Source: Acidobacteriota bacterium
GTDB lineage: Bacteria; Acidobacteriota; Blastocatellia; HR10
Direction of reading: 5' to 3'
DNA: 37,463 nt
Assembly (NCBI GenBank): GCA_030550025.1
Contig: JAUQQC010000003.1
Span: 1-37,463 of the forward strand
Part shown: piece by piece, positions 15,988 through 30,387 of the stretch
Layout of the letters: each line of letters opens with the position of its first letter
How positions within the stretch are numbered: position 1 is the first letter of the stretch
Position numbers and translations under genes: made by a program
Notes under the pieces: generated by a model
Seen by the model: the letters and a program-made list of their open reading frames with translations, nothing else
Database searches by the model: none
What the model was told of the DNA's origin: nothing

Positions 15988-18900
15988 TCACTTCGGGCGG
16001 TGGGCGAGGCGTCGGTAGTATTCCTCGACCACACGTCGGTACTCGGGCGGAACGGCCATCTCCTCAGCCAATCGCAGCCGATCGGATCCCAAGCGCTCTT
16101 GCTGCCGACGGCTCAATTCCCACTCCAAGCGCCGGAGTGGATCGAGCACCTGACGTCTCAATCGCTCGATCTCCTCCGGGTCATGGAACAATCGCGCTTC
16201 ATCGAGGCGTCGAAGCTCGGCGATGAGTCGGTTGACGTCCTCCACGAGATCACGCATGGGCATAAGGCTGCGACGCAATTCCTCGGCCTCCCGCACGCGT
16301 TCATCGAGTTCGCGTCGGAGCTGCCGAAGGGCTTCGCCAAGATCGCGGCGCGGCTGCGGTTGCCCGAATGCTGTGGCATCGGCCGTGGAATCCTGAGCCG
16401 GACCGCGACTCCCCAGAGGATTCACGCGCACCTCGCCAGTACGTCGTTCGCCCGAGGGTTCGCGCGAGGACTCCGAAGTGGCCGACGCCTGCTCTCTGGA
16501 CCGATCTGCTCCTCCCCGCTGACTGCTCGCGCGCGAGGCCTCTTGCGCAGAAGCGCGCGACCCCCCTCTCCGAGCGCTCTCGCGCTCGGCGGACAATCGG
16601 TCGCTGAGCGACTGGAGATTTTCGGCCAAGCGACGCGCGCGCTCCTGGGCTTCGGCCATGCGATCGTCGAGCGAGCGCGCTCCAGCGTTCCGCGCCGCCT
16701 CATCGAGCCGACGGACGACTTCGCCAAGCGCGCGCGCGATCGCGCGCTCCTGCTGGGCGGCATATTCGAACCACCGATTCTCGAGCAGCCGATTCCCCTG
16801 CGCGATCCGCTCGGGCACGCGCTCGTGCCGAATCGTTTCGGCTGCGGCCGAGAGGCTCCTTGTGGCCGAGGCCGCGTTCTCCTGACGCGCTCGTCGCGCC
16901 GCGTCTTCGATCTGCTGCCCGAGACGGGCCACCTCTTCGGCGAGAGCGGACTTGCGCTCGCGGAGCGACTGACGTTCGACCTCTGAAGGCGCGCGATTGG
17001 CCTCGCGAGCGAAACGTTCGACCTCGCGAGCGATGCGCTCCTGATGTTCGCGGGCTTCGCGCGCGCGGTCTCGCAACCGATGGATCTCCTCGGCCAATTG
17101 CGAGCGCTGGGCCGATTGGAGCTGGCGCCGCGCTGCCTGCAGATGCTCCAGGGCTTGCGCCCGATGCGCTGCCGCCTCGCGCTCATCTGACGCACTGCGG
17201 GCGCGCTGCATCTCATGCGCCGCTCGTTCCAGGTGCTGACGAACCTGATCCAAAGGCGCCTCTCGACGCTCCCGCGTCAATCGGTCGAGCTGCCGCGCCA
17301 GCTCACGTACCTGTTCGACCATTTGGCCCTCTTCCCCGGAGCCTCGACCAGAAGCTCCCTGTCGCAGCTGTTGCTCCAAAAGCCGCTGCTGCCGCTCGGC
17401 CAGCTCGCGCAGCCGCCGCTCCAACTCCTCCAACTGCCGATCGCGCGTTTGTCCGCGGTCGCGCTGAATCGTCTCGTACTGATTCCGCATCTTGTCCAGC
17501 TCCAGCTCGAAGAGATCGGCCAGGTCTTGCGCACGCGCGTTTGCCCCACCATCGGCCCGATTGGCGAAGGCGACTTGTATCTCCCGAAAGAGGGAATCGG
17601 CGCGAAGGAGCTGTTGGTAGGCTCGCTGCTCAAAGGGCAGCGCTTCCTTCAGACGACGCGCCCGCAATTCCAGAACGGCGCGCTCCATCTCTCGAATGGC
17701 TGCACTCAAGGCATCGAAGAGCTTCTTGAACTCCTCCATCTCTTCCAAGCCCTCGCCGAGCCGTCGCTGCATGCGATCCACAACCGCCTGCACGTCCTCG
17801 CGCAATTTCGATTGCGCCAGCTCGAGCGTGTTCACGTCTGCTCGAAACTCTTCGGCCGAGGTGCGATCCTTCTCCCGAAGGACGCGCCAAGTTGCGGCGA
17901 TGATCTCTTTCTGCCGCTCCGCGAACGCGCTCTCGCGATCTCCGGCTCCCTGGCCCGTCGGCGCTTGCTGCGCTTGACGGAACCGCCGATCAAACGGTCG
18001 GACTTCGAGGAAGTAGATGTCGCTCGTCGCGACGCCGGGACCAGTCGCCGTATTGATGTCGTGGGCGGTGACGTAATAGCTGATGACATCGCCGGGCTCC
18101 AGATTCAGCTCTTCGAGGAAGAACGTGTGCGATCCGGTGATGGACCGAGGAGGCGCGCCGCGCGCTTGATAGAGCGTCACCTTCTGTTCCGGCCCCCCAT
18201 TGACCGAATAATGCAGCTCCACACGCCCGATGCCGTAATCGTCCTCGGCGCGCGCCTCGGTGAAGACCTCTTGGATGGCCGTCACCTTCATATCCCGTCC
18301 GGGTCTCTCGATGACGATCGTCGGAGGGGCATCATCCAACGCCTCGATCTGATATTCACGCGAAGCGGCATAGGCTTCTCCCACAAGTGGCTGCACCCGA
18401 ACGTGATATCGAGCGTTCTTGGAGACGACGATCGGCGCGGTGAAACTCGACGTCCCGCTGGGCGTCATCGTCAGCGAAGTCCCATCGTCGAAGACAAGCC
18501 ACGCTCTGCGCACGCGCCCGTTGAGATGGGCCGTCACCGTCACGCGCGTCCCTTTCAGGGCCGCGATGTCCCCATCCTCCTCGACCTTTCGCGACGGCTG
18601 TCCCGTATACGCCGGGTAGACGTAGAGCAGCTCAAGCCGACTCACGCGGGGCCAGTCCACGACCTCGATCCGAAATGCGGTGGAGCGGACGGCGCGAGCC
18701 ATCACGTAGTATTCGATCGAACGTTGCACGTCCGCAAAACGGAAGCGAAAGACGCGCGGCTCCGAAGCGTCCATCGGCTGCTCCCGCCAGTTCGATTCGC
18801 CTTCCGATCGGAAGATGATGCGCGCCGAATCGGCATCGAAATTCTGCAGCGTGGCCGTCACGAGCTGATCCAAGCCGCGCGGGATGCGCGTATCTCCAGG

Positions 18901-19545
18901 ATGCACATGAATTGCCAAATGCGGAGGCGAGGCGAGCTTCCACGGCAGATAGAGCCATTCGAGGCCCCGGCGAAGCGATCCCGGCCCCACCACCATGAGC
19001 GATGCGAAGAACAGCACGGGCGCCGCCACGAGAAATGCGCGAAGGCGCAATCGGCGCGTCGGCAACACGCTCTCGGCGCTCACCGTCGCGCACTGCGCGA
19101 GCGCATCGGCGAGCAACCGATGGACGAGCGCCGGAGAGAACGGCTCAGCGCGCTCGCGTGATCTCGCCGAAGGAGCGATCGAGACGCCGGGGGCGGCAAC
19201 GTCCGACCGAGAGAGGATCTCAATGGCCGTCACCAAGCGGTCTTCAAGACGCGGCTCCCGCTCCTCGATGAAGCGCGCGAAGGTCGCATCATCGGGGATT
19301 CGACGAAGTGGCCGCCAAACGAAGGCATACGCGATCGCCAGCACGATAAGCCCCGTGCCCACGCGAAGCGCCGTCAGGACTTCCGGCGCCACGGGCGCGC
19401 GCGACGCCGCGATCCCGGCCAGGATAAACCACCCGACCAGCCCCGCAGCGGCAAAGGCCGCATGCCGCAACCAGTAGCCCCACAACCACCGCCGACGTAG
19501 GCGACGAACGAAACGAATGAGCATCTCCGATGAAGGCGCTGTCAT
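15988..19545 (-). CDS. DUF4175 family membrane protein with very long coiled-coil C-terminus
   Basis: A 1185-residue protein, last gene of the leftward operon. The N-terminus has two membrane helices (about 28-47 and 57-78) with WRPLRRIPDDATFARFIEER between and after them, the usual DUF4175 beginning. A third hydrophobic helix lies at about 170-187. A beta-rich periplasmic region follows, with FILE-type motifs ending in EEGDVISYY-like segments (LNLEPGDVISYYVTAHD). From about residue 545 to the end the sequence is almost continuous Arg/Glu/Gln-rich helix, strongly predicted as coiled coil. The function is unknown; family members sit beside MoxR/DUF58/VWA genes and are thought to be envelope structural partners. 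The start at 19545 lies 3 bp after the preceding stop, with AAGGAGGG inside the upstream gene. Repetitive composition makes alignment to other coiled coils unreliable. Confidence 0.85.
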   Translation of the reverse strand: MTAPSSEMLIRFVRRLRRRWLWGYWLRHAAFAAAGLVGWFILAGIAASRAPVAPEVLTALRVGTGLIVLAIAYAFVWRPLRRIPDDATFARFIEEREPRLEDRLVTAIEILSRSDVAAPGVSIAPSARSRERAEPFSPALVHRLLADALAQCATVSAESVLPTRRLRLRAFLVAAPVLFFASLMVVGPGSLRRGLEWLYLPWKLASPPHLAIHVHPGDTRIPRGLDQLVTATLQNFDADSARIIFRSEGESNWREQPMDASEPRVFRFRFADVQRSIEYYVMARAVRSTAFRIEVVDWPRVSRLELLYVYPAYTGQPSRKVEEDGDIAALKGTRVTVTAHLNGRVRRAWLVFDDGTSLTMTPSGTSSFTAPIVVSKNARYHVRVQPLVGEAYAASREYQIEALDDAPPTIVIERPGRDMKVTAIQEVFTEARAEDDYGIGRVELHYSVNGGPEQKVTLYQARGAPPRSITGSHTFFLEELNLEPGDVISYYVTAHDINTATGPGVATSDIYFLEVRPFDRRFRQAQQAPTGQGAGDRESAFAERQKEIIAATWRVLREKDRTSAEEFRADVNTLELAQSKLREDVQAVVDRMQRRLGEGLEEMEEFKKLFDALSAAIREMERAVLELRARRLKEALPFEQRAYQQLLRADSLFREIQVAFANRADGGANARAQDLADLFELELDKMRNQYETIQRDRGQTRDRQLEELERRLRELAERQQRLLEQQLRQGASGRGSGEEGQMVEQVRELARQLDRLTRERREAPLDQVRQHLERAAHEMQRARSASDEREAAAHRAQALEHLQAARRQLQSAQRSQLAEEIHRLRDRAREAREHQERIAREVERFAREANRAPSEVERQSLRERKSALAEEVARLGQQIEDAARRARQENAASATRSLSAAAETIRHERVPERIAQGNRLLENRWFEYAAQQERAIARALGEVVRRLDEAARNAGARSLDDRMAEAQERARRLAENLQSLSDRLSAERESARRGGSRASAQEASRASSQRGGADRSREQASATSESSREPSGERRTGEVRVNPLGSRGPAQDSTADATAFGQPQPRRDLGEALRQLRRELDERVREAEELRRSLMPMRDLVEDVNRLIAELRRLDEARLFHDPEEIERLRRQVLDPLRRLEWELSRRQQERLGSDRLRLAEEMAVPPEYRRVVEEYYRRLAHRPK

Positions 19546-19548
19546 TTT

Positions 19549-21639
19549 TCATCCCTCCTTCGGCGAAGAGCGACCGAGCGACGCTCGGAATCTCCTCACC
19601 GTTCTGTCGGCCAGAACGGCCTCCGAGAGCAACACCAAGATGGCCGCCAGAAGCAACGCGCGCCATAAGGTTTGTCGCTCCGCTTGGACGCGTTCTTCTC
19701 CCGTGCTCGCAATGGCTCGTTTCCCTTCCCCTCCGCCCACCGCCGTCATCAGGCGTTCGCGCTCGGCCTCCTCCATTTTCGTCAGGTCTGACTCTCCGGC
19801 TTCGACGTTGACGGCGATCGGCTCTTCTCCACGTAAGTGTCGCACGCGATAGATGCCGATGCGTTCCGGTGTGAATCGGGTCGAATCTTCGGACACTTCT
19901 TCTCCCCCGCGATGAAGGCGTTCTCCATCGGGAGCGAGGATGGCGAGTGGCCTCCCTGGCGCCGCATCGGCGAGCGCGACGTTTTCCCCGACACGGAAGA
20001 AAGGCCGCGGCGAAGACCTCCTCACCGAAGCGAGCATCTGATGAATGAGCGGCGCATACAGCGGCGTGAGCGGAAGATTGCTCCACTGTGCATCGAGGCC
20101 GAAGGCTAGCAGGAGCACTCTCCCGCGCCCGCGCGCGATCTCCAGAACGGCCGGCTCGCCATCGTGAAACCGCGCTAGGACCAAAGGAGGCGTCGTGGAC
20201 ACTGCACCTGGATCGAGGGCGAGCTTCGCAGAGCGGGAGAATCGCACGTTGGAGAAATTCGCCCGACGCGGATCAGCAAAGGGACGAAAGAGCGGATGGC
20301 TGGTCTCGATCTCCGTGAGAAACGAGAACGCCTGGGCGCGCTCCCCTTCAACTTTCACGCCGAGCCAGGGGCCGAACGTTCGATTGAAAGCCCTCGCATC
20401 CGCATGTGGGCCAAGGGCGAGAATCATCCCCCCTCCGGCAGCGACGAACTCGCGGAGTGTGGCTTCCACCGCCGGATCGAGCGCCGCGGGATCAGTGAGC
20501 ACGATGGCCTCCGCTCTCTTCACCTGCTCCGGCGTCGCCTCCGAGAGCGCCCGCACAAGGACTCGTCCAGGACCGAATGCATCATCGGCCAGGAGCGCCT
20601 GCTGCACGTAGAAACCGGCGCTCTCGGCAGATGCGCGCGATCGAGCGCCTTCGAGGACGAGCACCGGTCGTGGCATCTCGCGCCGAATGATCAAGAAGAA
20701 GCGATCGTCGTCGGGCAGCCGATCGGGATCCAGCTCCACGCGCACGCGATTGAAGCCGGGATCGAGGGGAAAATCCGCAAACTCAACGGTCGCGACCACC
20801 CCCGGATCGAGCGCCACCTGCTTCTCCTGAACGAGTCGATCATTGACGAACAGGCGGATCGTCGTCGGCGCCGCCACACGATGGAAATTCCCCACCCGTA
20901 CGAGGAGCCGCTCCGGGTATTGTGGCATCATCACCCGTGCGAGCGCGCGCACGTCCAAGATGGCGCGGTTTTCGCCGCCCTCGGGCGCGACATCAATGGG
21001 CACAAGCCGCACACCGCGTGGAAGAGAAATCTCGGGCTCCGCGGATCGCCACTTCGAACGGTGAAAGTCGGAGATGAGGTAGATGATCTTCTCTCCCTCC
21101 TCGGCCCTCTCCAAGAGTGAGAGCGCGGCTTGCACCCCTTGGGCGTAATCGGTCGCGCGGAATGTCGGACGAAGTGCGCGCACGGCCGCCCGCGCGATCG
21201 CGCGATCGCGCTCAAGCGGCACGCGAACGTCCACGCGCGTGGAGAAGCCGATCACCCCTACACGAGCTCCTTCTGGCGCGCGCGCGAGGATCTCCTCGGC
21301 CCGCTCGCGCGCTCGCGCCAAGCGCCCGTCCGCGCGCATGCTGAGCGAGCAGTCCAGGAGCAGGACGAGCGCTGTCCCGGAACGCCCTCCCTCCCCATGA
21401 CCGCGCAGGTATGGACGCGCGAAGGCGAAGACGAGCAGAAGCAGCGCCATCGCGCGCAGCAAAAAGAGGAGCCAATGCCTCAAGCGCCGCCGCTGGTGCA
21501 CGGGCTCGGGCAACCGCCGTAGAAACAGAATCGACGCGAAGGGGATGCGTAACTTCGGCTCTCGCCGCATCAGGTGAATGAGCACCGGGATGACGAGCGA
21601 GAGCGCGCCAAGCAGAAACCATGGACTCAGAAACGACAT
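19549..21639 (-). CDS. BatA-like membrane protein with VWA and GATase-like domains
   Basis: A 696-residue protein. The N-terminus has two membrane helices, MSFLSPWFLLGALSLVIPVL (residues 1-20) and HWLLFLLRAMALLLLVFAF (about 55-73). This is the BatA/aerotolerance N-terminal module with the signature PVLIHLMRR. A VWA domain follows with the metal-ion-dependent adhesion site DCSLS (Asp96, Ser98, Ser100). After a beta-rich part, a class I glutamine-amidotransferase-like fold includes FVAAGGGMILALG; no catalytic Cys is evident. A C-terminal membrane helix lies near 665-683 (LLLAAILVLLSEAVL). It probably binds Mg2+/Mn2+ and partner proteins at the periplasmic face. Start 21639 is preferred over upstream in-frame codons because it begins the anchor and follows GAGGGG. 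It lies 11 bp after the DUF58 gene. Confidence 0.88.
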   Translation of the reverse strand: MSFLSPWFLLGALSLVIPVLIHLMRREPKLRIPFASILFLRRLPEPVHQRRRLRHWLLFLLRAMALLLLVFAFARPYLRGHGEGGRSGTALVLLLDCSLSMRADGRLARARERAEEILARAPEGARVGVIGFSTRVDVRVPLERDRAIARAAVRALRPTFRATDYAQGVQAALSLLERAEEGEKIIYLISDFHRSKWRSAEPEISLPRGVRLVPIDVAPEGGENRAILDVRALARVMMPQYPERLLVRVGNFHRVAAPTTIRLFVNDRLVQEKQVALDPGVVATVEFADFPLDPGFNRVRVELDPDRLPDDDRFFLIIRREMPRPVLVLEGARSRASAESAGFYVQQALLADDAFGPGRVLVRALSEATPEQVKRAEAIVLTDPAALDPAVEATLREFVAAGGGMILALGPHADARAFNRTFGPWLGVKVEGERAQAFSFLTEIETSHPLFRPFADPRRANFSNVRFSRSAKLALDPGAVSTTPPLVLARFHDGEPAVLEIARGRGRVLLLAFGLDAQWSNLPLTPLYAPLIHQMLASVRRSSPRPFFRVGENVALADAAPGRPLAILAPDGERLHRGGEEVSEDSTRFTPERIGIYRVRHLRGEEPIAVNVEAGESDLTKMEEAERERLMTAVGGGEGKRAIASTGEERVQAERQTLWRALLLAAILVLLSEAVLADRTVRRFRASLGRSSPKEG

Positions 21640-21650
21640 CGCACCGCCCC

Positions 21651-22568
21651 TCACGGAAGATGCGCTCGCCGTCCGAGATAGGTGTAGAGGGCCCAATCGA
21701 GGGGTTGCGTCGTGAGCACCCGCTGGTACGCGATCCCGTGAGCTTGACAAAAGCGTTCGACCTCGTCCAGATGCCGACGGACGGCTTCGCGATATTCGGC
21801 GCCGAGTGCATCGGGCGCGACGGGAACCTCCTCTCCCGTCTCCATGTCCACGAAGCGCGCGGCTTCAGAGAACGGAAACTCTACTTCCGAGGCGTCCAAG
21901 ATGTGGAAGACCATGAGGTCCTGCCCTTGGGACCGAAGAAGCCGCAAGGCCGATCCCAGCACGTCCGGCGGTTCGTACAAGTCCGAGAGGAGGACGACGA
22001 TGCCACGGCGTCGCACGCGTTCGGCGATGCGCCGCAGCGCCTCGGCGATCGCCGAGGTCCCGCCCGGCTTCAACCGCTCCAACGCACTCAAAATGAGATG
22101 GAGCTGCCCAGGCCGCAACCGCGCCGGGATGTACTCCACGATCCCGCGATCGAAGGTGATCAAGCCGACGGCGTCATTCTGCCGCGTCGCCAGATAGGCG
22201 AGCGACGCCGCCAGGTAACAGGCGTACTCGCGCTTTTCAATGGCCGGCGGCAGCCGATACGCCATCGAGGCGCTCACGTCCAAGAGCACGTACACGCGCG
22301 TGTTCGTGTCTCCGTGGAACCGCTTGATGTAGGTCCGGTCGGTCCGCGCCAAGACCTTCCAATCGAGGTAGCGGAGATCATCGCCGGGCATATACGGACG
22401 ATATTCCGCGAAATCCACGCTGAAGCCGATATAGGGCGAACGATGCAGGCCAGCGAGAAAGCCTTCGACGACCGTGCGCGCCAGCAGCTCCAGCGACGAG
22501 ATCTTCGCCAACACCTCCGGACGGAGAAATCGAAATGTCGGACGCGCTCCGTCGGTAGACCGATTCAT
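21651..22568 (-). CDS. DUF58 domain protein (VWA-like)
   Basis: A 305-residue soluble DUF58 protein. The family signature GFSVDFAEYRPYMPGDDLRY is followed by LDWKVLARTDRTYIKRF and then the MIDAS motif DVSAS (Asp97, Ser99, Ser101). Later VWA strands include VVLLSDLYEP. DUF58 proteins are almost always encoded next to MoxR ATPases and are regarded as their partners or substrates in cofactor insertion or complex assembly. The start is fixed by the ATGA overlap with the MoxR stop (22565-22568), which couples the two stoichiometrically. In-frame codons upstream are inside MoxR and are rejected. Confidence 0.92.
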   Translation of the reverse strand: MNRSTDGARPTFRFLRPEVLAKISSLELLARTVVEGFLAGLHRSPYIGFSVDFAEYRPYMPGDDLRYLDWKVLARTDRTYIKRFHGDTNTRVYVLLDVSASMAYRLPPAIEKREYACYLAASLAYLATRQNDAVGLITFDRGIVEYIPARLRPGQLHLILSALERLKPGGTSAIAEALRRIAERVRRRGIVVLLSDLYEPPDVLGSALRLLRSQGQDLMVFHILDASEVEFPFSEAARFVDMETGEEVPVAPDALGAEYREAVRRHLDEVERFCQAHGIAYQRVLTTQPLDWALYTYLGRRAHLP

Positions 22569-23593
22569 ACCGAAAGACCCGATGTCGGCTCCGGCACCGC
22601 TTCCAGCAAGCGGCGGATGATCTCCTCCGAATTCACCCCCTCGGATTCGGCCCGGAAATTCACGAGGATGCGATGGCGCAGGACCGGATACGCGAGCGCG
22701 CGCACATCCTCGCACGCGACGTGGTACCGACCGTTCAAGATGGCGCGCGCTTTCCCCCCGAGGATGAGGAACTGCGAGGCCCGTAAGCTCGCCCCCCAAT
22801 TGACCCACTTGCGGACGAAGTCGAAGGCCCCGTTCTCCGGTCGACTCGCCCCCACCAAGCGCACGGCGTAGCGAATGACGGATTCGGCCGCCGGCACCTG
22901 ACGGATCAAGCGTTGAAACTCGATGATGTCCCGCCCCGTGATCTGCCGCTCGAAGACGACGTCCTGTGGCGCCGTCGTCGCTCGCACGACTTCCACTTCC
23001 TCCTCCTCGCTCAAATAGCCGATCTTGATGTTGAACATGAACCGATCCAACTGCGCCTCCGGGAGCGGATACGTCCCCTCCAGTTCGATCGGATTCTGCG
23101 TCGCGAGCACGAAGAAGGGCTTGGGCAGCTCGTACGTCACGCCCTGCACCGTCACCGCTCCCTCCTGCATTGCTTCCAGCAGCGCGGCCTGCGTCTTCGG
23201 CGGCGTCCGATTGATCTCATCCGCCAGGACGATGTTGGCGAAGATCGGCCCTGGCACGAAATGGAAGTGCCGCTTGCCCGTCGCTCGATCCTCCTCGATG
23301 ACTTCCGTCCCCGTGATGTCGCTTGGCATGAGATCCGGAGTGAACTGAATGCGTTTGAACTTCAAGTCGAGGGCGTTGGCGATCGTCTTGATCAGGAGCG
23401 TCTTGGCTAATCCCGGCACCCCCGTGATGATCGAATGCCCACCGACGAAGAGCGAGATGAGCACTTGTTCGATCACCTCGTCCTGTCCGATGATCACCTT
23501 CCGAATCTCCCGCAAGATGTGCGCCTTCGCGCGGACGAGCTTCTCCAACAACTCCTCGTCGTGCGTTTGATCAACGGCCTTATTGATGAGCAT
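22565..23593 (-). CDS. MoxR-family AAA+ ATPase
   Basis: A 342-residue cytoplasmic AAA+ ATPase. Walker A is GVPGLAKT (58-65) and Walker B is NIVLADEINR (Glu126). Sensor 1 lies in ATQNPIELEGTYPLPEAQLD (Asn167), followed by RFMF with the arginine-finger candidate Arg184. The MoxR-typical FTPDLMPSDITG and FVPGPIFAN segments are intact. MoxR proteins act as chaperones that load metals or assemble complexes together with VWA-domain partners; here DUF58 and two VWA genes are in the same operon. The ATG at 23593 has GAGGGGAGGAG upstream. The gene is separated from the DUF4159 gene by 65 bp containing a hairpin. Confidence 0.95.
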   Translation of the reverse strand: MLINKAVDQTHDEELLEKLVRAKAHILREIRKVIIGQDEVIEQVLISLFVGGHSIITGVPGLAKTLLIKTIANALDLKFKRIQFTPDLMPSDITGTEVIEEDRATGKRHFHFVPGPIFANIVLADEINRTPPKTQAALLEAMQEGAVTVQGVTYELPKPFFVLATQNPIELEGTYPLPEAQLDRFMFNIKIGYLSEEEEVEVVRATTAPQDVVFERQITGRDIIEFQRLIRQVPAAESVIRYAVRLVGASRPENGAFDFVRKWVNWGASLRASQFLILGGKARAILNGRYHVACEDVRALAYPVLRHRILVNFRAESEGVNSEEIIRRLLEAVPEPTSGLSV

Positions 23594-23658: not shown

Positions 23659-24414
23659 TCAATGCGTCAGCGCATAGATGGCGTAATTCACACCGAACTT
23701 GAAGGCTTCATTCGTATACTCGATGGGCGCGAACGGATCGTCCGACCACTCCCAGTATTCGCTCACATCGTTATTGTAGTTGACGATCATCATCAAGCGC
23801 CCCTTCTTGTCCGAGAGGCCGAAGAACTTCGGCGTACCCTCGCCATATGGGGGCGTCATCTCCAAGGTCTTGATGTTGAAGAAGCAGTTGAAAATGGGAT
23901 GCGAGATGTCCAATTCCTCCAGCTCCAACTCGGGGAACGCGCGGCGCAGGTGCGCGCGGAGATTCTCCAAGGCCCATTCCTCTCGGAAATCGTCCACGAT
24001 GAGGAAGCCCCCGCGCAGCAAGTACTCGCGCAAGCCCTCGATCTCTCGATCGCTCAATCTCATGAACCCGACCTCGCAAAGATACGCGAATGGGTATTTG
24101 AAGAGTCGCGGATCATCAAAACGGAGGATCACCTCATCGGGATTGGCGTCCACGAGGCTCACTTCGCTCAGGATCTTCATCAGGTGGCGCCCGCCACGCG
24201 GATAATCGTGTGCCCAAGGGGGCACGGCGCCAAAGAACGTGCGCGAGGAGAAGTGCCCGCCGTACTGAATGCGGGCGAAGGTGAACCGATTCGAGGAGGC
24301 GTCTAAGTCCACACCCGGCTGCGCCCCTTTGGGAGACGCCCCGCTGATGAGCACAGCCATTGCGCCTCCGATGAGCCACGCGCGCGCATGACGGGAGCGA
24401 CCGAGATTTCGCAT
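23659..24414 (-). CDS. DUF4159 domain protein, exported
   Basis: About 251 residues with an N-terminal signal segment (ARAWLIGGAMAVLISGA). The DUF4159 body begins FTFARIQYGGHFSSRTFFG. The core GGFLIVDDFREEWALENLR resembles a GATase/Rossmann-type strand-turn-helix, and PIFNCFF is another family block. The C-terminus FKFGVNYAIYALTH is characteristic. Biochemical function is unknown; the family is regularly found next to MoxR, DUF58 and VWA genes. Of two closely spaced ATGs, 24414 is chosen because GGGAGG lies 6 nt before it but directly abuts the ATG at 24420. Confidence 0.88.
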   Translation of the reverse strand: MRNLGRSRHARAWLIGGAMAVLISGASPKGAQPGVDLDASSNRFTFARIQYGGHFSSRTFFGAVPPWAHDYPRGGRHLMKILSEVSLVDANPDEVILRFDDPRLFKYPFAYLCEVGFMRLSDREIEGLREYLLRGGFLIVDDFREEWALENLRAHLRRAFPELELEELDISHPIFNCFFNIKTLEMTPPYGEGTPKFFGLSDKKGRLMMIVNYNNDVSEYWEWSDDPFAPIEYTNEAFKFGVNYAIYALTH

Positions 24415-24431
24415 CTTCATCCTCCCACGTT

Positions 24432-27110
24432 TCAGTTCTCGACGAGTTTCAAAAGGAGCGCCTGCGCTTTCTCGAACCCGGGCGCGATCTCCAGCGCCCG
24501 CAGGATTTCGCGTCGGGCTTCCGCTCGCGCGCCCTTCGCCAGAAGGGCTCGTGCGAGCTGATAATGCGCCTCCGCGCGATCCGGTGGATTCAGATGCAAC
24601 ACGGCGGAGAAGGCGCGCACGGCCCGCTCCGGTTGGTTCTGCTCCAGATACAACTCCCCAGCCTGCGCCTGCAGGTCTCGATCTAAGGGGGAGATCGCCA
24701 AGGCCGCTTCCAGGGCTCTCTCGGCCACGTCCCTCCTCCCCAGTTTCAACGCCAGTCGAATGATCCGCCGCTCAAGCGCCTCGTTCGCCTCTTCGCGAGC
24801 TGCCCATTGCTCGAGTACCTGTAAGGCTTCGGCCACATCCCCGCGCTCTTCAAGGATCGCGGCCAGCGCCTCATATGCGTTCCCCGGTCCCGTATAGAAG
24901 GGGAAGAGACGGATCGCCTCGCGCAGATGCCGGAGAGCCGCCTCCGTATCGCCGCGCGTTCGGAGCCTGCGCCCCAAGTGCAAGTGCGCGGCGAAATTCT
25001 CCGGATGGCGCGCGAGCGTCTCTCGCAGTTCCTCCTCCGAGACTTCCGATCGCCTGAGCAGGTTCGGATCGAGCCGCGCCAGATATGGTCCGATCTCTCG
25101 CATCACGTGCTCGCGAAAGAGCCGATCCAATTCTTCCACGGTCGCGCCGAGCGCCTTCTGAAATACCCCATCGGTGCGCTCCCCTTGGCGATAGAGGGCG
25201 AGCATCTGGCGCAGTCGCTCGAAGCCGAAGCGATCGACGAGGAATTCGACGACGAGCGAAGCTTGAAAATAGGCGAGCGAGAGCGCCTCCGGGGAGGGAG
25301 GGCGAAGGAAGGACGCCTCTAAGTGGCGCACAGGGACGAATCGTCCTTCGCCGAAGGCGCGCACGAATTCGAGCGTCCACTGATGCCCCCACCCCGGTCC
25401 CGCCCGTCGCTCCTCATAGACCGAGATGCCTTCGGAGAGCCATCGCGGGATGCGATACGCCGTCGCCTGCAGCGTGATCACGTGAACGAACTCGTGCCAC
25501 GCCGTGCTCGCCCAATTGAATGACCCGCGCGGGCGCGCCGATGGGGAATCCATGGCGATCACGCGTCCGAAGCAGGCGCCGAGCGCTCCGAGCCCAGGCA
25601 GTCCGACGGTCTTCACGGCGAAGTCCTCATGGTTCGGGAACAACTCGACGATGATGGGCCCCTCGGGTCGAAACTGATACCGTTCGCTGAGCTGCGCATA
25701 CGCACGTTCGAGCAGCTCCGCCACAAGCGGTGCGACGACAGGGCTCTCCGACGGCGCCATGCGGATGAGGAAGTGCTCGGTGATCGTCTCTCGATAGGCG
25801 CGCATGCTGTCGAGCAGATCGAGCGTGTTCTTCACCCAGACGTTGAACGGGTCTCCGGCGAAGGCTCGCTCCAGGACCTCGCGCCCTTCCGCGTCGCGCC
25901 CCAGGCGCAAGAGGTTCACCCCCAACGTCGCCCACGCACGCCACAACCACGGCGACAGCTCCACGGCTCGCCGCGCGAACTCGACGGCCTCGGGATATCG
26001 CCGGTTGAGCACGGCGAAATCGGCGAGGGTGGCGTACAGCTCGCCGTAGCGGGGGTTCGCGCCGAGCACGCGCCGGATCTCCTCGGCCAGGTCAGCCGCG
26101 CGATCCTCTAAATAAAAGGCTACTGCGCGCAGCGCGCGCGTCGAAAGCGAATGCGGATTCACGCGAAGCGCTTCCGCGAGATGCCGTTCGGCGGCCTCGA
26201 CCTCGCCCACCTCCAGCAACAGGGTGGCCATGAGGTCATGAGCCTCGACCAGCCGCGGATTCACGGCGAGCGCCCGTTGAGCATGAGCGAGCGCATCGCC
26301 CCCGCCGCCCGGCCGCGCGCTACGCGCCAGCCCCAGATGCGCTCGCGCGCAGTGGGGATTGATCCGCAAAGCATCGCGGAAGAAGCTCGCGGCCTCGGCG
26401 TAGTTGTACTTCTCCAGGAAGAGATCGCCCGCCTGCAGATATGCCTCCCGAAACGAAGGGTCACGCTCGATGGCCTTGGCGTACAACTCATTCGCCTCAT
26501 GCGGGCGATCCAGAAAGACGAGCGCACGCGCCGTCCAGGTCAAGTCTTCCGCCGACTGCAGCCCGCGCTCGAAGGCCTGCGCGCAGAGGCGGTGGAGAAA
26601 CTCACGCGCTTCTTCGCTGCGTCCCATCTGCCAGAGGACACGCCCCTTCTGAACGCTCGCCCGAATGGCGCCAGGCCACCCCGCGTGCGCCAGCGCGCGC
26701 TCGAATGCTCGCAACGCCTCGTCGAAACGGCCAGTCGTCAACAGCACCTCTCCAAGCAGCATCCCCAAGCGCGCCGTTTCGCCGGCCGAGCGAGTGCGAT
26801 CCGCACGCGCGAGGACGTCGCGGGCCGTCCGCTCGGCATCCTCATATCGTCCCGTCTCCATGTAGGCCGTAATCAAGCCTTCGGCGGCACGCACCGGATC
26901 CAGCTCGAGCGCCGCGTGAAGCTGAACGACCGCTTCCGCATATTCCCCACGCCGCAGTCTCTCCAACCCCGCTTCGATCGGTGACTGTGCTTCCCCTTGC
27001 GCGCCCCCCTCCAGGAAGACGAGAAGGAACAGGAGACACCTCACCAGCGGCGCGCCACTTCCGATATCCGGTCGCACGCACAACAGCTGCCTCCCACGCA
27101 TTCGCCTCAC
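24432..27110 (-). CDS. Exported TPR protein with embedded HExxH metallopeptidase domain
   Basis: An 892-residue protein. A signal-like hydrophobic stretch (about 22-37, LVRCLLFLLVFLEGGA) precedes about ten tetratricopeptide repeats (residues 45-435). The middle holds a gluzincin-type domain: STAWHEFVHVITLQ has zinc ligands His539 and His543 and base Glu540. The third ligand is Glu560 in RWLSEGISVYEE, 17 residues after the second His, as in peptidase MA-like families. The domain runs from about 440 to 670. A second block of TPRs (about 700-890) follows. All zinc and catalytic residues are present, so it is predicted to be active in the periplasm. The GTG start at 27110 overlaps the preceding stop (GTGA); ATG 27101 is an alternative. 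The substrate is unknown. Confidence 0.85.
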   Translation of the reverse strand: MRRMRGRQLLCVRPDIGSGAPLVRCLLFLLVFLEGGAQGEAQSPIEAGLERLRRGEYAEAVVQLHAALELDPVRAAEGLITAYMETGRYEDAERTARDVLARADRTRSAGETARLGMLLGEVLLTTGRFDEALRAFERALAHAGWPGAIRASVQKGRVLWQMGRSEEAREFLHRLCAQAFERGLQSAEDLTWTARALVFLDRPHEANELYAKAIERDPSFREAYLQAGDLFLEKYNYAEAASFFRDALRINPHCARAHLGLARSARPGGGGDALAHAQRALAVNPRLVEAHDLMATLLLEVGEVEAAERHLAEALRVNPHSLSTRALRAVAFYLEDRAADLAEEIRRVLGANPRYGELYATLADFAVLNRRYPEAVEFARRAVELSPWLWRAWATLGVNLLRLGRDAEGREVLERAFAGDPFNVWVKNTLDLLDSMRAYRETITEHFLIRMAPSESPVVAPLVAELLERAYAQLSERYQFRPEGPIIVELFPNHEDFAVKTVGLPGLGALGACFGRVIAMDSPSARPRGSFNWASTAWHEFVHVITLQATAYRIPRWLSEGISVYEERRAGPGWGHQWTLEFVRAFGEGRFVPVRHLEASFLRPPSPEALSLAYFQASLVVEFLVDRFGFERLRQMLALYRQGERTDGVFQKALGATVEELDRLFREHVMREIGPYLARLDPNLLRRSEVSEEELRETLARHPENFAAHLHLGRRLRTRGDTEAALRHLREAIRLFPFYTGPGNAYEALAAILEERGDVAEALQVLEQWAAREEANEALERRIIRLALKLGRRDVAERALEAALAISPLDRDLQAQAGELYLEQNQPERAVRAFSAVLHLNPPDRAEAHYQLARALLAKGARAEARREILRALEIAPGFEKAQALLLKLVEN

Positions 27111-28117
27111 GGCGTTTTCCTCCGCGCGTTAATACGCTCGGTGAGCCTAGCCAGCTCCAATAACCATCGCTCCAACTCCCGTTCGTACTCTTCCGGCGGC
27201 ATCTCGGCCTTCCGAGCTTTCACCGCCTCGATCTTCTCAAGGAGCGCCTGCCGCTGGCGAAGCAAAGCGCGCAGTTCTTCATCTTCTCCGCCGATCTCGA
27301 CCGGCGCTTCCAGATACACCGTTCGCGCCAGCTGTCCATCCCCCTCGCCTACCTCCCCGTGTCCGATGCCATCACCATTATCGTCGAGAAGAGGGTGCTC
27401 GGTCGCCAGGATCCCTTGCTGCGCATAATGCTCCGCTGTCAACGCGGTGGCGAAGGCGAAGGCTTCCGCGAGCGAGATGCGCCCATCTTTATCAGCGTCG
27501 GCTCGCGCATCGGTGAAAGCCTCGATGAAGTAGTGAGCGAAGATCGTCGCCTGCTGCTCGCGTCCGCTGCGCGTGGCCGTGATGACGATCGTCCCCGGTC
27601 GACTCAGCACCGGAAGGAACGCGCCGCTTGAGCTGGCCGCGTTCACGAAGACGATATGGCGCGCCTTCACTCGCGAAAGAAGAGCGCGGAAATCCTCCGC
27701 CGAGAGATCCGGCCCGACCAGATGGAAATATCCGCGCGCGCCATCGAAGCCGCCGTGCCCGATCAGGAAGATGACGATGAGACTCTCGGGCGTGCTCTCC
27801 ACGCGTAATCGTTCGAACGCGTGGCGAACCGCATCGGCGGTCGCGCGCGCGACATTCGGCGAACACCCGCGGCCATCGGGAGTGAGCACGAAGACGTGCT
27901 CCGGGCGAAATCGCCAGCGTTCGGTGAGGAGCCCGCAGAGGCGATCGGTCCATTCGGTGAACCGACGCTCGAACGTCGGGTCGCCACCGAGGCCGCGCAC
28001 GAGCACGGCGAACCGCTCATCCGGCGCGCGCCGCTCTCCTTGCGCGTGGGCTCCGCCGAGAAGCAACAGTCCCACGACCACGCTCGTCCCCATCTTTCCG
28101 AAGGACGATCGCGTCAT
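27107..28117 (-). CDS. Exported caspase-fold (C13/C14-like) protein lacking the catalytic cysteine, with EF-hand loop
   Basis: 336 residues with a signal peptide (SVVVGLLLLGGAHAQ, cleavage near 26). The caspase-like fold shows the His-Gly motif FLIGHGGFDG (His121). At the strand where peptidases have DACxSG, this protein reads VFVNAASSSGAFLPVLS (159-165), with no Cys. The only cysteines, at 61 and 85, are far from the site. The family-like segment TIVITATRSGREQ follows. A canonical 12-residue EF-hand loop lies at 207-218 (DADKDGRISLAE) and a looser DDNGDG at about 245-250. The C-terminus (about 265-336) is an Arg/Glu-rich coiled coil. It is probably a calcium-binding scaffold or pseudopeptidase. 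Start 28117 follows GGGGGAG and overlaps the upstream stop by 4 bp (ATGA). Confidence 0.8.
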   Translation of the reverse strand: MTRSSFGKMGTSVVVGLLLLGGAHAQGERRAPDERFAVLVRGLGGDPTFERRFTEWTDRLCGLLTERWRFRPEHVFVLTPDGRGCSPNVARATADAVRHAFERLRVESTPESLIVIFLIGHGGFDGARGYFHLVGPDLSAEDFRALLSRVKARHIVFVNAASSSGAFLPVLSRPGTIVITATRSGREQQATIFAHYFIEAFTDARADADKDGRISLAEAFAFATALTAEHYAQQGILATEHPLLDDNGDGIGHGEVGEGDGQLARTVYLEAPVEIGGEDEELRALLRQRQALLEKIEAVKARKAEMPPEEYERELERWLLELARLTERINARRKTP

Positions 28118-30387
28118 ATCTCCCCCAGTCGCCGCCGCAACGCCCACTCGAGCGAAAGGAAGCCGACTAGAAGCAGAAAGATGATCGGCATGTCCCACAA
28201 TTCTTTGGTCACGCGAATCGAGTGCGCTCCGGCCGAATACTCCAGCTCGGGCACCAGGGCTTCCGCTTCAGAGATCGGATGATATTCCCCGCCGGTCTCC
28301 CGCGCGAGCCACTTCAGCAGCTCGACGTTTTGTCCAGCTCCGCGATATTCTCGATCCGGCTCTCGCACGATCAACTGAGCCTCCGCCTCGCCCAACTCGC
28401 GATCGGCACGCTGCGCGCGCGCGCGAAGGCGATACACACCTGGTTCCCGCACCAGGAGCGCGCCGATGTACTCCCCCCCACTCTCCAGAGAGGGCTCCAC
28501 GCGCACGCGCTCGGTCGCGCCGTGCGGCGTGGTCACTTCGACCTCAACCGCGGCGTTCGGAACGGATCGGAAAAGCTCATCCCGCACCTCCACGCGGAGG
28601 GGAGCTTCATCCCCCACTTCGTAAGCGTCCGCATCAGTCCGCACTGTGACCGGATCCTCGGCGAAGCTGACCATATATCGCAGCATCTGCTTCCAGAACG
28701 TCTCGTGCGAGAGATCGCTCGAACCCATCTCCATCTGCCATCGCCAGGAATCCGAAGGCGTGAAGGCGAGACCGATCCCCCGACCATATCGGTGCAGAGC
28801 GAGCAGGACGGGACGCACTCCGGTGCGCAAGGCCTTCGCCCCTTCGAGCAAGACGATGGCGCCGGGCTTGGCGCGCGTGAAGACCTCGGGCACGGTCACG
28901 CGCGGCAGCGCTCGCCATGCGCGCTCGTTCGCCGCAGGATCGGCCTTCAGGCGCGTGATCGGATGTTCGCGCCCATCCGCGGTCAACATCGGCGCATAGG
29001 CCGCGACCTCCTGCTCGCTCTCGCGCGGATCTTCCGATCGTTCGTGCCGCACCTCGACGGGAAGGACCTCGGCGAGCGGCGTCAACGCATACCCCCCAGC
29101 CGAGAACGAACGCCGACCACCAAGCATGAGCAATCCCCCTCCACGCCGCGCGACGAACGCCTCCATCCACTCCAGTTGCTCGCGGGTGAAGAACCCGGCT
29201 TCCACGCTCCCGAGGATCAGCCCCTTGAACCGAAAGAGTTCCTCCGGGCGCTCCGGAAATCCCTGCACCAATTCCTCCCCGCTCTCGACGCCCTGCCGAT
29301 AGAATTTCCCCCGAGCCGTGCGCACGACCGAGACGAGATTGAGCTGCTCGTCATCGGCGACAGCGGCGCGCAGTTTCCCGTATTCCCACCGGGGTTCTCC
29401 CTCGATGTAGAGCACGCGCGCCACTTCGTCGCGCACCTCCACGATGGCCTCCAGCCGATTGTTCTCGGGGATCAATTCCCGCGGTTGGGGATCAATGACG
29501 AAGACGTACCGATGCACACCGGCCTCCGGCGGCGTGAACTCCAACGCGACCGCCAAGGACCCCATCTCGCGAGCGCACTCGATCGGTTTCACCTGAAGCG
29601 TGCGCTCGCCCTCGATGACGCGCACCGTCACGCGACGTTCCAGTCCGCGCCCGCAGCGGAGGAGGAGGTCGGCCTTCACCGATGATCCTTTGAGGACGCG
29701 CCGGGGAACGTTCACGCGCACCAGTTCGACGTCACGCTCGACCTGCCGTTGCCCCACGCCGACCGCGTAAATGGGGACGCGCCGCGCCGCAAACGTCGGA
29801 AGGAGGGCCGAGAGGTCTCGCCGCGCATTATGCGCCCCATCGCTGAGGAGGATGATGGCGGCCAGCGATTCTCCGTGAAGGCTTGCGAGAACGCGCTCAA
29901 GCCCGGTCGCGAGATCCGTCCGGGGGACAGTCGCCCGGTCCGTCAGCTCCCCGCCGCTCAGCGTGAAGACGCGCACCGCGAACTTCGCCGTGAGCGCGCG
30001 CCAGAATGTACCTTCGGAAGCGAGGAGCGCGTGAACGGCCTCCGCGCGAGAGCGACCGTTCACGTCCGGGATCGTCATACTGAGAGAATCGTCCACCACG
30101 ATCGCGACCGTCGCCGTGTGGGGGATGATCGAAGGGACGATCACGACCGGTTGCAACACGCAGAAGATCAACAGGGCGAGCGCGCTGAGCCGAAGACCGA
30201 GCAGGACGATCTTCATCCGCCGTGGGAGCAGCTGTCGCGCGCGCCGAACGATCAGATACGCGCCGCTGAGCGTCGCCGCCACCAGCGCGGCTCGGGCGCT
30301 CGCCGAAGAGAACGCCGCGAACGAAAACTCACCGCGCTCGAAAACGACCGGCGGATATTTGAAGAGCCATTCAAACACACGATCCAT
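28114..30387 (-). CDS. Membrane protein with VWA and glutamine-amidotransferase-like domains
   Basis: A 757-residue protein and first gene of the leftward operon. Two N-terminal membrane helices (about 31-47 and 59-83) precede a VWA domain whose MIDAS is DDSLS (Asp99, Ser101, Ser103). The VWA fold includes AIILLSDGAHNARRDL. An immunoglobulin-like segment and a GATase1-like domain follow, the latter with LILGSVEAGFFTREQLEWME and FVARRGGGLLMLGGRRSF; no nucleophilic Cys is apparent. Another beta-sandwich region lies before the final membrane helix (about 733-750, PIIFLLLVGFLSLEWAL). The architecture parallels the BatA-like gene at the other end of the operon, but the sequences are clearly distinct. 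ATG 30387 has no strong ribosome-binding site. Confidence 0.87.
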   Translation of the reverse strand: MDRVFEWLFKYPPVVFERGEFSFAAFSSASARAALVAATLSGAYLIVRRARQLLPRRMKIVLLGLRLSALALLIFCVLQPVVIVPSIIPHTATVAIVVDDSLSMTIPDVNGRSRAEAVHALLASEGTFWRALTAKFAVRVFTLSGGELTDRATVPRTDLATGLERVLASLHGESLAAIILLSDGAHNARRDLSALLPTFAARRVPIYAVGVGQRQVERDVELVRVNVPRRVLKGSSVKADLLLRCGRGLERRVTVRVIEGERTLQVKPIECAREMGSLAVALEFTPPEAGVHRYVFVIDPQPRELIPENNRLEAIVEVRDEVARVLYIEGEPRWEYGKLRAAVADDEQLNLVSVVRTARGKFYRQGVESGEELVQGFPERPEELFRFKGLILGSVEAGFFTREQLEWMEAFVARRGGGLLMLGGRRSFSAGGYALTPLAEVLPVEVRHERSEDPRESEQEVAAYAPMLTADGREHPITRLKADPAANERAWRALPRVTVPEVFTRAKPGAIVLLEGAKALRTGVRPVLLALHRYGRGIGLAFTPSDSWRWQMEMGSSDLSHETFWKQMLRYMVSFAEDPVTVRTDADAYEVGDEAPLRVEVRDELFRSVPNAAVEVEVTTPHGATERVRVEPSLESGGEYIGALLVREPGVYRLRARAQRADRELGEAEAQLIVREPDREYRGAGQNVELLKWLARETGGEYHPISEAEALVPELEYSAGAHSIRVTKELWDMPIIFLLLVGFLSLEWALRRRLGEI

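Follow-up and report, generated by a model that had tools for sequence, protein, structure and literature searches.

A Cys-less legumain/caspase-like protein family, apparently exported, in a Bat/Cmd-type MoxR-vWA operon of Acidobacteriota and other bacteria

Introduction

A peptidase-like protein that keeps the histidine of its catalytic dyad and lacks the cysteine raises the question of whether another residue has taken over as nucleophile or whether the fold now serves some purpose other than cleavage. Such a protein is encoded in the 37,463-nucleotide stretch of an Acidobacteriota genome analysed here (contig JAUQQC010000003.1, hereafter the window), and the initial annotation, made from the sequence, had proposed either a calcium-responsive pseudopeptidase or an enzyme in which a serine among residues 162–164 replaces the cysteine. 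We asked which fold the protein has, what stands at the position of the cysteine, how far its loss extends among homologues, and in what genetic setting the gene is found.

Results

The gene reads on the minus strand from an ATG at 28117 to a stop at 27107–27109, a reading frame of 336 aa, with the following features.

27107..28117, minus strand: gene of the Cys-less legumain/caspase-like protein (P0001), 336 aa plus stop, backed by homologues
28043..28117, minus strand: predicted Sec signal peptide, about residues 1–25, MTRSSFGKMGTSVVVGLLLLGGAHA, from the sequence
27752..27757, minus strand: His121-Gly122, the HG motif, His121 being invariant (187/187)
27623..27643, minus strand: residues 159–165, NAASSSG, where active clan CD peptidases have D-x-C
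27464..27499, minus strand: EF-hand-type loop D207–E218, ligand set kept in 186/187
27350..27400, minus strand: second acidic motif, residues 240–256, EHPLLDDNGDGIGHGEV, equally fixed
27116..27280, minus strand: C-terminal two-helix tail, residues 280–334, from the AlphaFold2 model

The protein is apparently exported, as judged from the predicted signal peptide, and a comparable hydrophobic stretch lies ahead of the core in 58 of the 61 homologues with enough sequence. The strand due to bear the catalytic Cys reads VFVNAASSSG (residues 159–167, NAASSSGAF), and the only cysteines in the protein are Cys61 and Cys85; the initial annotation had described these features, together with His121-Gly122 and the loop D207–E218, correctly, and the gene lies on the minus strand. 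The coiled-coil tail that it had also proposed is helical, but in the model consists of two helices (280–301 and 308–334) with a turn between them, and so resembles a helical hairpin more closely than a single extended coiled coil.

Residues 105–230 match Pfam Peptidase_C13 (PF01650) with an E value of 3.4e-7 and 30.5 bits (curated cut-off 22.8), and P0001 has no match in NCBIfam. An AlphaFold2 model built with 81 input sequences has a mean pLDDT of 94.7; searched with Foldseek, it finds legumains best (E 5.5e-8), with metacaspases, GPI transamidase and caspase-7 further down the list, and VIA-align superposes it on prolegumain with a Z of 22.9 (202 residues at 2.3 A). The Pfam match and the legumain matches of the model speak against a fold of any other kind; on the model, the protein has the clan CD (caspase/legumain) alpha/beta/alpha fold, an assignment not due to chance and in agreement with the caspase-like fold first suggested. 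In a sequence profile search of the PDB, metacaspases were matched over the N-terminal part alone, up to the HG motif, and because these matches stop there the search yields no register for the Cys.

In active caspases from the same class the core strand ends in D-x-C. In a profile alignment with one such group (L199/L201/L202/L203), the Asp at −2 falls on Asn159 and the Cys on Ala161, and the Cys falls on Ala161 as well in the three single-sequence alignments with a probability of at least 93 that resolve the position by default (L181, L199 and L203). The remaining alignments place it at 162 or 163, except for two that stray far off, and none places it at 164; hhalign against mixed C14 sequences, in a first run, gave Ser162 at low column confidence. 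In the model the strand ends at Asn159 and a helix starts at Ser164, which indirectly supports Ala161. We thus infer that Ala161 is the preferred occupant of the Cys position, with a register that is ambiguous by sequence, the weaker alignments favouring 162 or 163.

The loss of the cysteine is not peculiar to the window. Counting the genome of the window itself, 26 of 98 relatives have a match to the protein, and 25 of the matches span most of it; across the phylum, matches, including weak partial ones, occur in 123 of 396 genomes, and matches were also obtained in 63 of 121 genomes in the phylum around one Gemmatimonadetes MAG (that of L048). Further members, labelled KSB1, Latescibacterota, Woeseiaceae and others, came from a scan of named genomes; most of these genomes are MAGs, so the labels may be wrong. 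The family is therefore large, found in Acidobacteriota, Gemmatimonadota and other bacteria, and present in one copy in most genomes. Several genomes (G123, G407, G241, G338, G310, G359 and G380) have two strong full-length family copies. Copies and operons of the acidobacterial type also occur in MAGs labelled Acidimicrobiia or Cyanobacteria (L042, L052, L069, L099 and L044); these records are probably mislabelled or contaminated.

We aligned 187 distinct homologues, in which the residues around the expected nucleophile are distributed as follows.

Site 161: T 90, A 69, S 23, G 4, M 1
Site 162: S 139, A 14, E 11, G 10, T 7, P 3, N 3
Site 163: A 121, S 39, G 14, C 8, T 3, V 2
Site 164: S 182, A 5

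None of the 187 has Cys at 161 or 162, while every one has His121; the absence of the catalytic Cys holds family-wide, as the first reading of this single protein had left to be seen. Cys occurs at 163 in 8 of the 187 and at 160 in 4. No column of the alignment has Cys in more than 8 sequences, and we rejected the idea that another Cys has taken over catalysis. The five members with Ala164 (L206–L209 and L256) carry Ser163, reading S-S-A-G.

To follow the individual sites we used a FastTree phylogeny of the 187 members, with the motif masked and three active caspases serving as the outgroup; many forks in this tree are weakly supported. Sites 159, 160, 161, 162 and 163 change 25, 37, 41, 29 and 36 times, respectively, the median over all columns being 49. 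No change at all is seen at His121, Gly135, Asp137, Asp207, Glu240 and Asp246, while Glu218 changes once and Ser164 twice. The eight members with Cys163 (L073, L093, L099, L127, L222, L254, L263 and L264) read T-x-Cys-Ser-Gly in place of the usual A/S-Ser-Gly, and one of them (L093), when modelled, has the same fold (pLDDT 95.1). Because Cys163 needs three changes on the tree and lies two residues beyond the preferred position, we do not read it as the retained ancestral nucleophile; it is possible that this minority has a regained or relocated thiol.

A serine or threonine standing in directly for the cysteine at 162 or 163 (or 161), as had been proposed initially, has some numbers on its side: 139 of the 187 have Ser at 162, 113 have Thr or Ser at 161, and the pattern S162-x-S164-G165 is invariant in the 25 close orthologues. 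However, the protein in the window has Ala at 161, which is also the best register for the Cys, and in the wider family A, E, G, T, P or N may also stand at 162, so that Ser162 as a plain swap, which would fit the close orthologues, fails beyond them. Since sites 161–163 change freely (29 to 41 times, with 29 for Ser162 and 36 for Ser163), unlike His121 and Asp137, a nucleophile at any of the three is improbable on sequence grounds, and we hold the direct swap to be the least credible of the readings considered here.

Ser164, near-invariant and never aligned at the nucleophile, is a different case. One could envision an active serine hydrolase on a caspase fold, in which the work of the Cys-His dyad has passed to Ser164, possibly together with His121 and Asp137; the invariant His121 and Asp137 and the Ser164 of 182 members are among the most conserved residues, and Ser164 changes just twice while the rest of the motif drifts. 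The strict retention of His-Gly and Ser164, which a dead site would not need, likewise counts against a pseudopeptidase. However, Ser164 lies three residues beyond the preferred Cys position and opens the next helix in the model, no alignment pairs it with a catalytic Cys, five members have Ala instead, and its conservation would be explained equally well by a helix N-cap or a contact with a partner. A serine enzyme is thus unlikely. Were it real, His121, Asp137 and Ser164 would make up a new catalytic arrangement, that of a periplasmic non-cysteine hydrolase within a MoxR-vWA envelope machine, for which we see only a slim chance.

Residues 207–218 (D207-A-D-K-D-G-R-I-S-L-A-E218) form a canonical EF-hand-type loop of 12 residues, flanked in the model by predicted helices 193–202 and 216–234, the exiting helix beginning within the loop. 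Its ligand pattern (D at position 1, D/N at 3, D/N/S at 5, E/D at 12) is kept in 186 of the 187 homologues and exceeds almost all other features in conservation; Gly at loop position 6 is found in just 120. No Pfam EF-hand model reaches its cut-off (EF-hand_1, 12.7 bits against 25.4). In the second acidic motif, Glu240 is found in 187/187 and Asp246 in 186, with one gap. The same EF-type loop is present in 4 of 20 active-caspase hits from the same class; as L173 and L201 are the same gene, these four hits represent three distinct proteins. The loop is thus best read as an old, inherited structural site that would bind calcium, rather than as a new switch. Of the calcium-responsive pseudopeptidase first proposed, the pseudopeptidase with a calcium-type loop is supported (187 homologues without the Cys, ligands kept in 186), whereas "responsive" is an overstatement, since the loop also occurs in caspases from this class that have kept the Cys.

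The gene is embedded in a row of others, listed here from upstream to downstream.

28114..30387, minus strand: upstream membrane protein with weak GATase1-like and VWA matches, in 71/80 homologous loci
24432..27110, minus strand: TPR protein with a Peptidase_MA_2 (HEFVH) domain, 892 aa, in 32/80 loci
23659..24420, minus strand: DUF4159 protein (Pfam, E 1.4e-45)
22565..23593, minus strand: MoxR AAA+ ATPase (Pfam AAA_3, E 1.6e-63)
21651..22808, minus strand: DUF58/vWA protein (Pfam DUF58, E 3.2e-49)
19549..21750, minus strand: BatA/VWA membrane protein (Pfam BatA, E 1.6e-17; VWA_2, E 1.4e-17)
15988..19545, minus strand: 1185-aa operon protein with no convincing Pfam family, in 37/80 loci

The stop of the upstream GATase/vWA-like gene overlaps the start of the Cys-less gene (ATGA), and the GTG start of the TPR/Peptidase_MA_2 gene overlaps its stop (GTGA). 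The start of the DUF58 gene probably lies downstream of 22808, since at 22808 it overlaps MoxR. The 1185-aa protein had been called DUF4175, a name we do not retain, as Pfam gives no DUF4175 match even at an E value of 10. With the TPR protein directly downstream (24432–27110), the operon couples a presumably dead peptidase with a metallopeptidase of the HExxH type that is possibly live.

Despite short contigs, the 80 homologous loci include BatA in 41, DUF58 in 30, DUF4159 in 26 and MoxR in 26; nearly all neighbours are on the same strand, and in eight loci the TPR gene lies upstream instead. MoxR, DUF58 and BatA/vWA in one same-strand cluster constitute a Bat/Cmd-type MoxR-vWA operon. The MoxR protein matches the bpMoxR model far more weakly (E 6.4e-10) than AAA_3.

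This setting bears on another possibility, that the protein serves a conflict (defence) system as an effector or decoy without activity. Such a role has been proposed for the inactive caspases of VMAP-type MoxR-vWA systems, whose effector position these domains commonly occupy (PMC7159879), and here too such a domain adjoins MoxR and vWA genes. However, PADLOC gives no match for P0001 and only weak, unconvincing ones for the neighbours scanned; none of those neighbours was recognised as a third component (VMAP, iSTAND, FtsH or beta-propeller), and they are instead the classical BatA, DUF58 and DUF4159; and the protein is present in one copy in most genomes and is predicted to be exported. We therefore consider a role in conflict quite unlikely.

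Discussion

The reading that we favour, and hold to be probable, is that of an exported Cys-less pseudopeptidase, which in the periplasm probably serves a Bat/Cmd-type MoxR-vWA system as a binding or scaffold subunit stabilised by Ca2+. The fold, the absence of the Cys, the conservation and the operon are results of computation; that the protein is exported, binds Ca2+ and a partner, lacks catalysis and acts in the envelope we infer. A C13/C14-type domain would have lost its nucleophilic Cys early in a large family and kept the fold, the His-Gly turn, the EF-hand-type loop and the C-terminal two-helix tail. The old substrate groove might then bind a peptide or a partner, for example the adjacent GATase/vWA-like membrane protein, and the protein, cleaving nothing itself, would serve in the periplasm as a Ca2+-stabilised subunit of the surrounding MoxR-vWA system. 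Because the Cys is lost family-wide, the loop is kept and the gene is mostly tied to one envelope operon, a binding or scaffold part is probably a better description than an enzyme.

Such a part would not be without precedent. For the inactive caspase domains of MoxR-vWA conflict systems, the authors of PMC7159879 suggest dominant-negative regulation or peptide binding, pseudo-orthocaspases are an instance of a dead caspase fold (PMC6426788), and an earlier census lists one Gemmatimonadetes homologue without the dyad, which may belong to the present family (PMC3501461). The rhizobial cmd operon is reported to have effects on envelope and morphology, as cited in PMC5700661.

Compared with known relatives, the family shares with legumain/C13 (PF01650) the fold, the HG motif and a profile match above the cut-off; unlike legumain, it has no catalytic Cys and no recognised LSAM domain, and it is bacterial and operon-encoded, with an EF-type loop and a two-helix tail. 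It resembles bacterial C14 orthocaspases of the DTCHSAG type (L199, L201 and L203) in its core strands, HG motif and EF-type loop at the same place, whereas those retain D-x-C and lie within larger proteins. With pseudo-orthocaspases (PMC6426788) it has in common a caspase fold without the catalytic pair, but these have a Tyr-Ser dyad and have lost the His, while the present family has an invariant His and, at the Cys position, T, A or S, none of them fixed. What it shares with the inactive caspases found in ternary MoxR-vWA conflict systems (PMC7159879) is a presumably dead caspase domain adjoining MoxR and vWA genes; those, however, are effectors fused to vWA components, and this is a stand-alone protein, predicted to be exported, beside BatA, DUF58 and DUF4159. 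The operon resembles the Bat (Bacteroides aerotolerance) and Rhizobium cmdABCD operons in MoxR, DUF58, vWA/BatA and TPR, and a caspase-like component goes unmentioned in those parts of PMC5700661 that describe them.

In the open-licence literature we found no description of a large exported family that keeps the His, lacks the Cys and is tied to a single Bat-like operon. Dead bacterial caspases have been familiar mainly as variable conflict effectors or as substituted variants in groups that include Cyanobacteria and Alphaproteobacteria. In the present family the nucleophile is lost throughout, much else is strongly constrained, and the gene is linked to a single conserved envelope operon in Acidobacteriota and Gemmatimonadota, which makes the protein a concrete subunit, with His121, Ser164 and D207/E218 as testable residues, for probing the function of Bat/Cmd-type MoxR-vWA systems.
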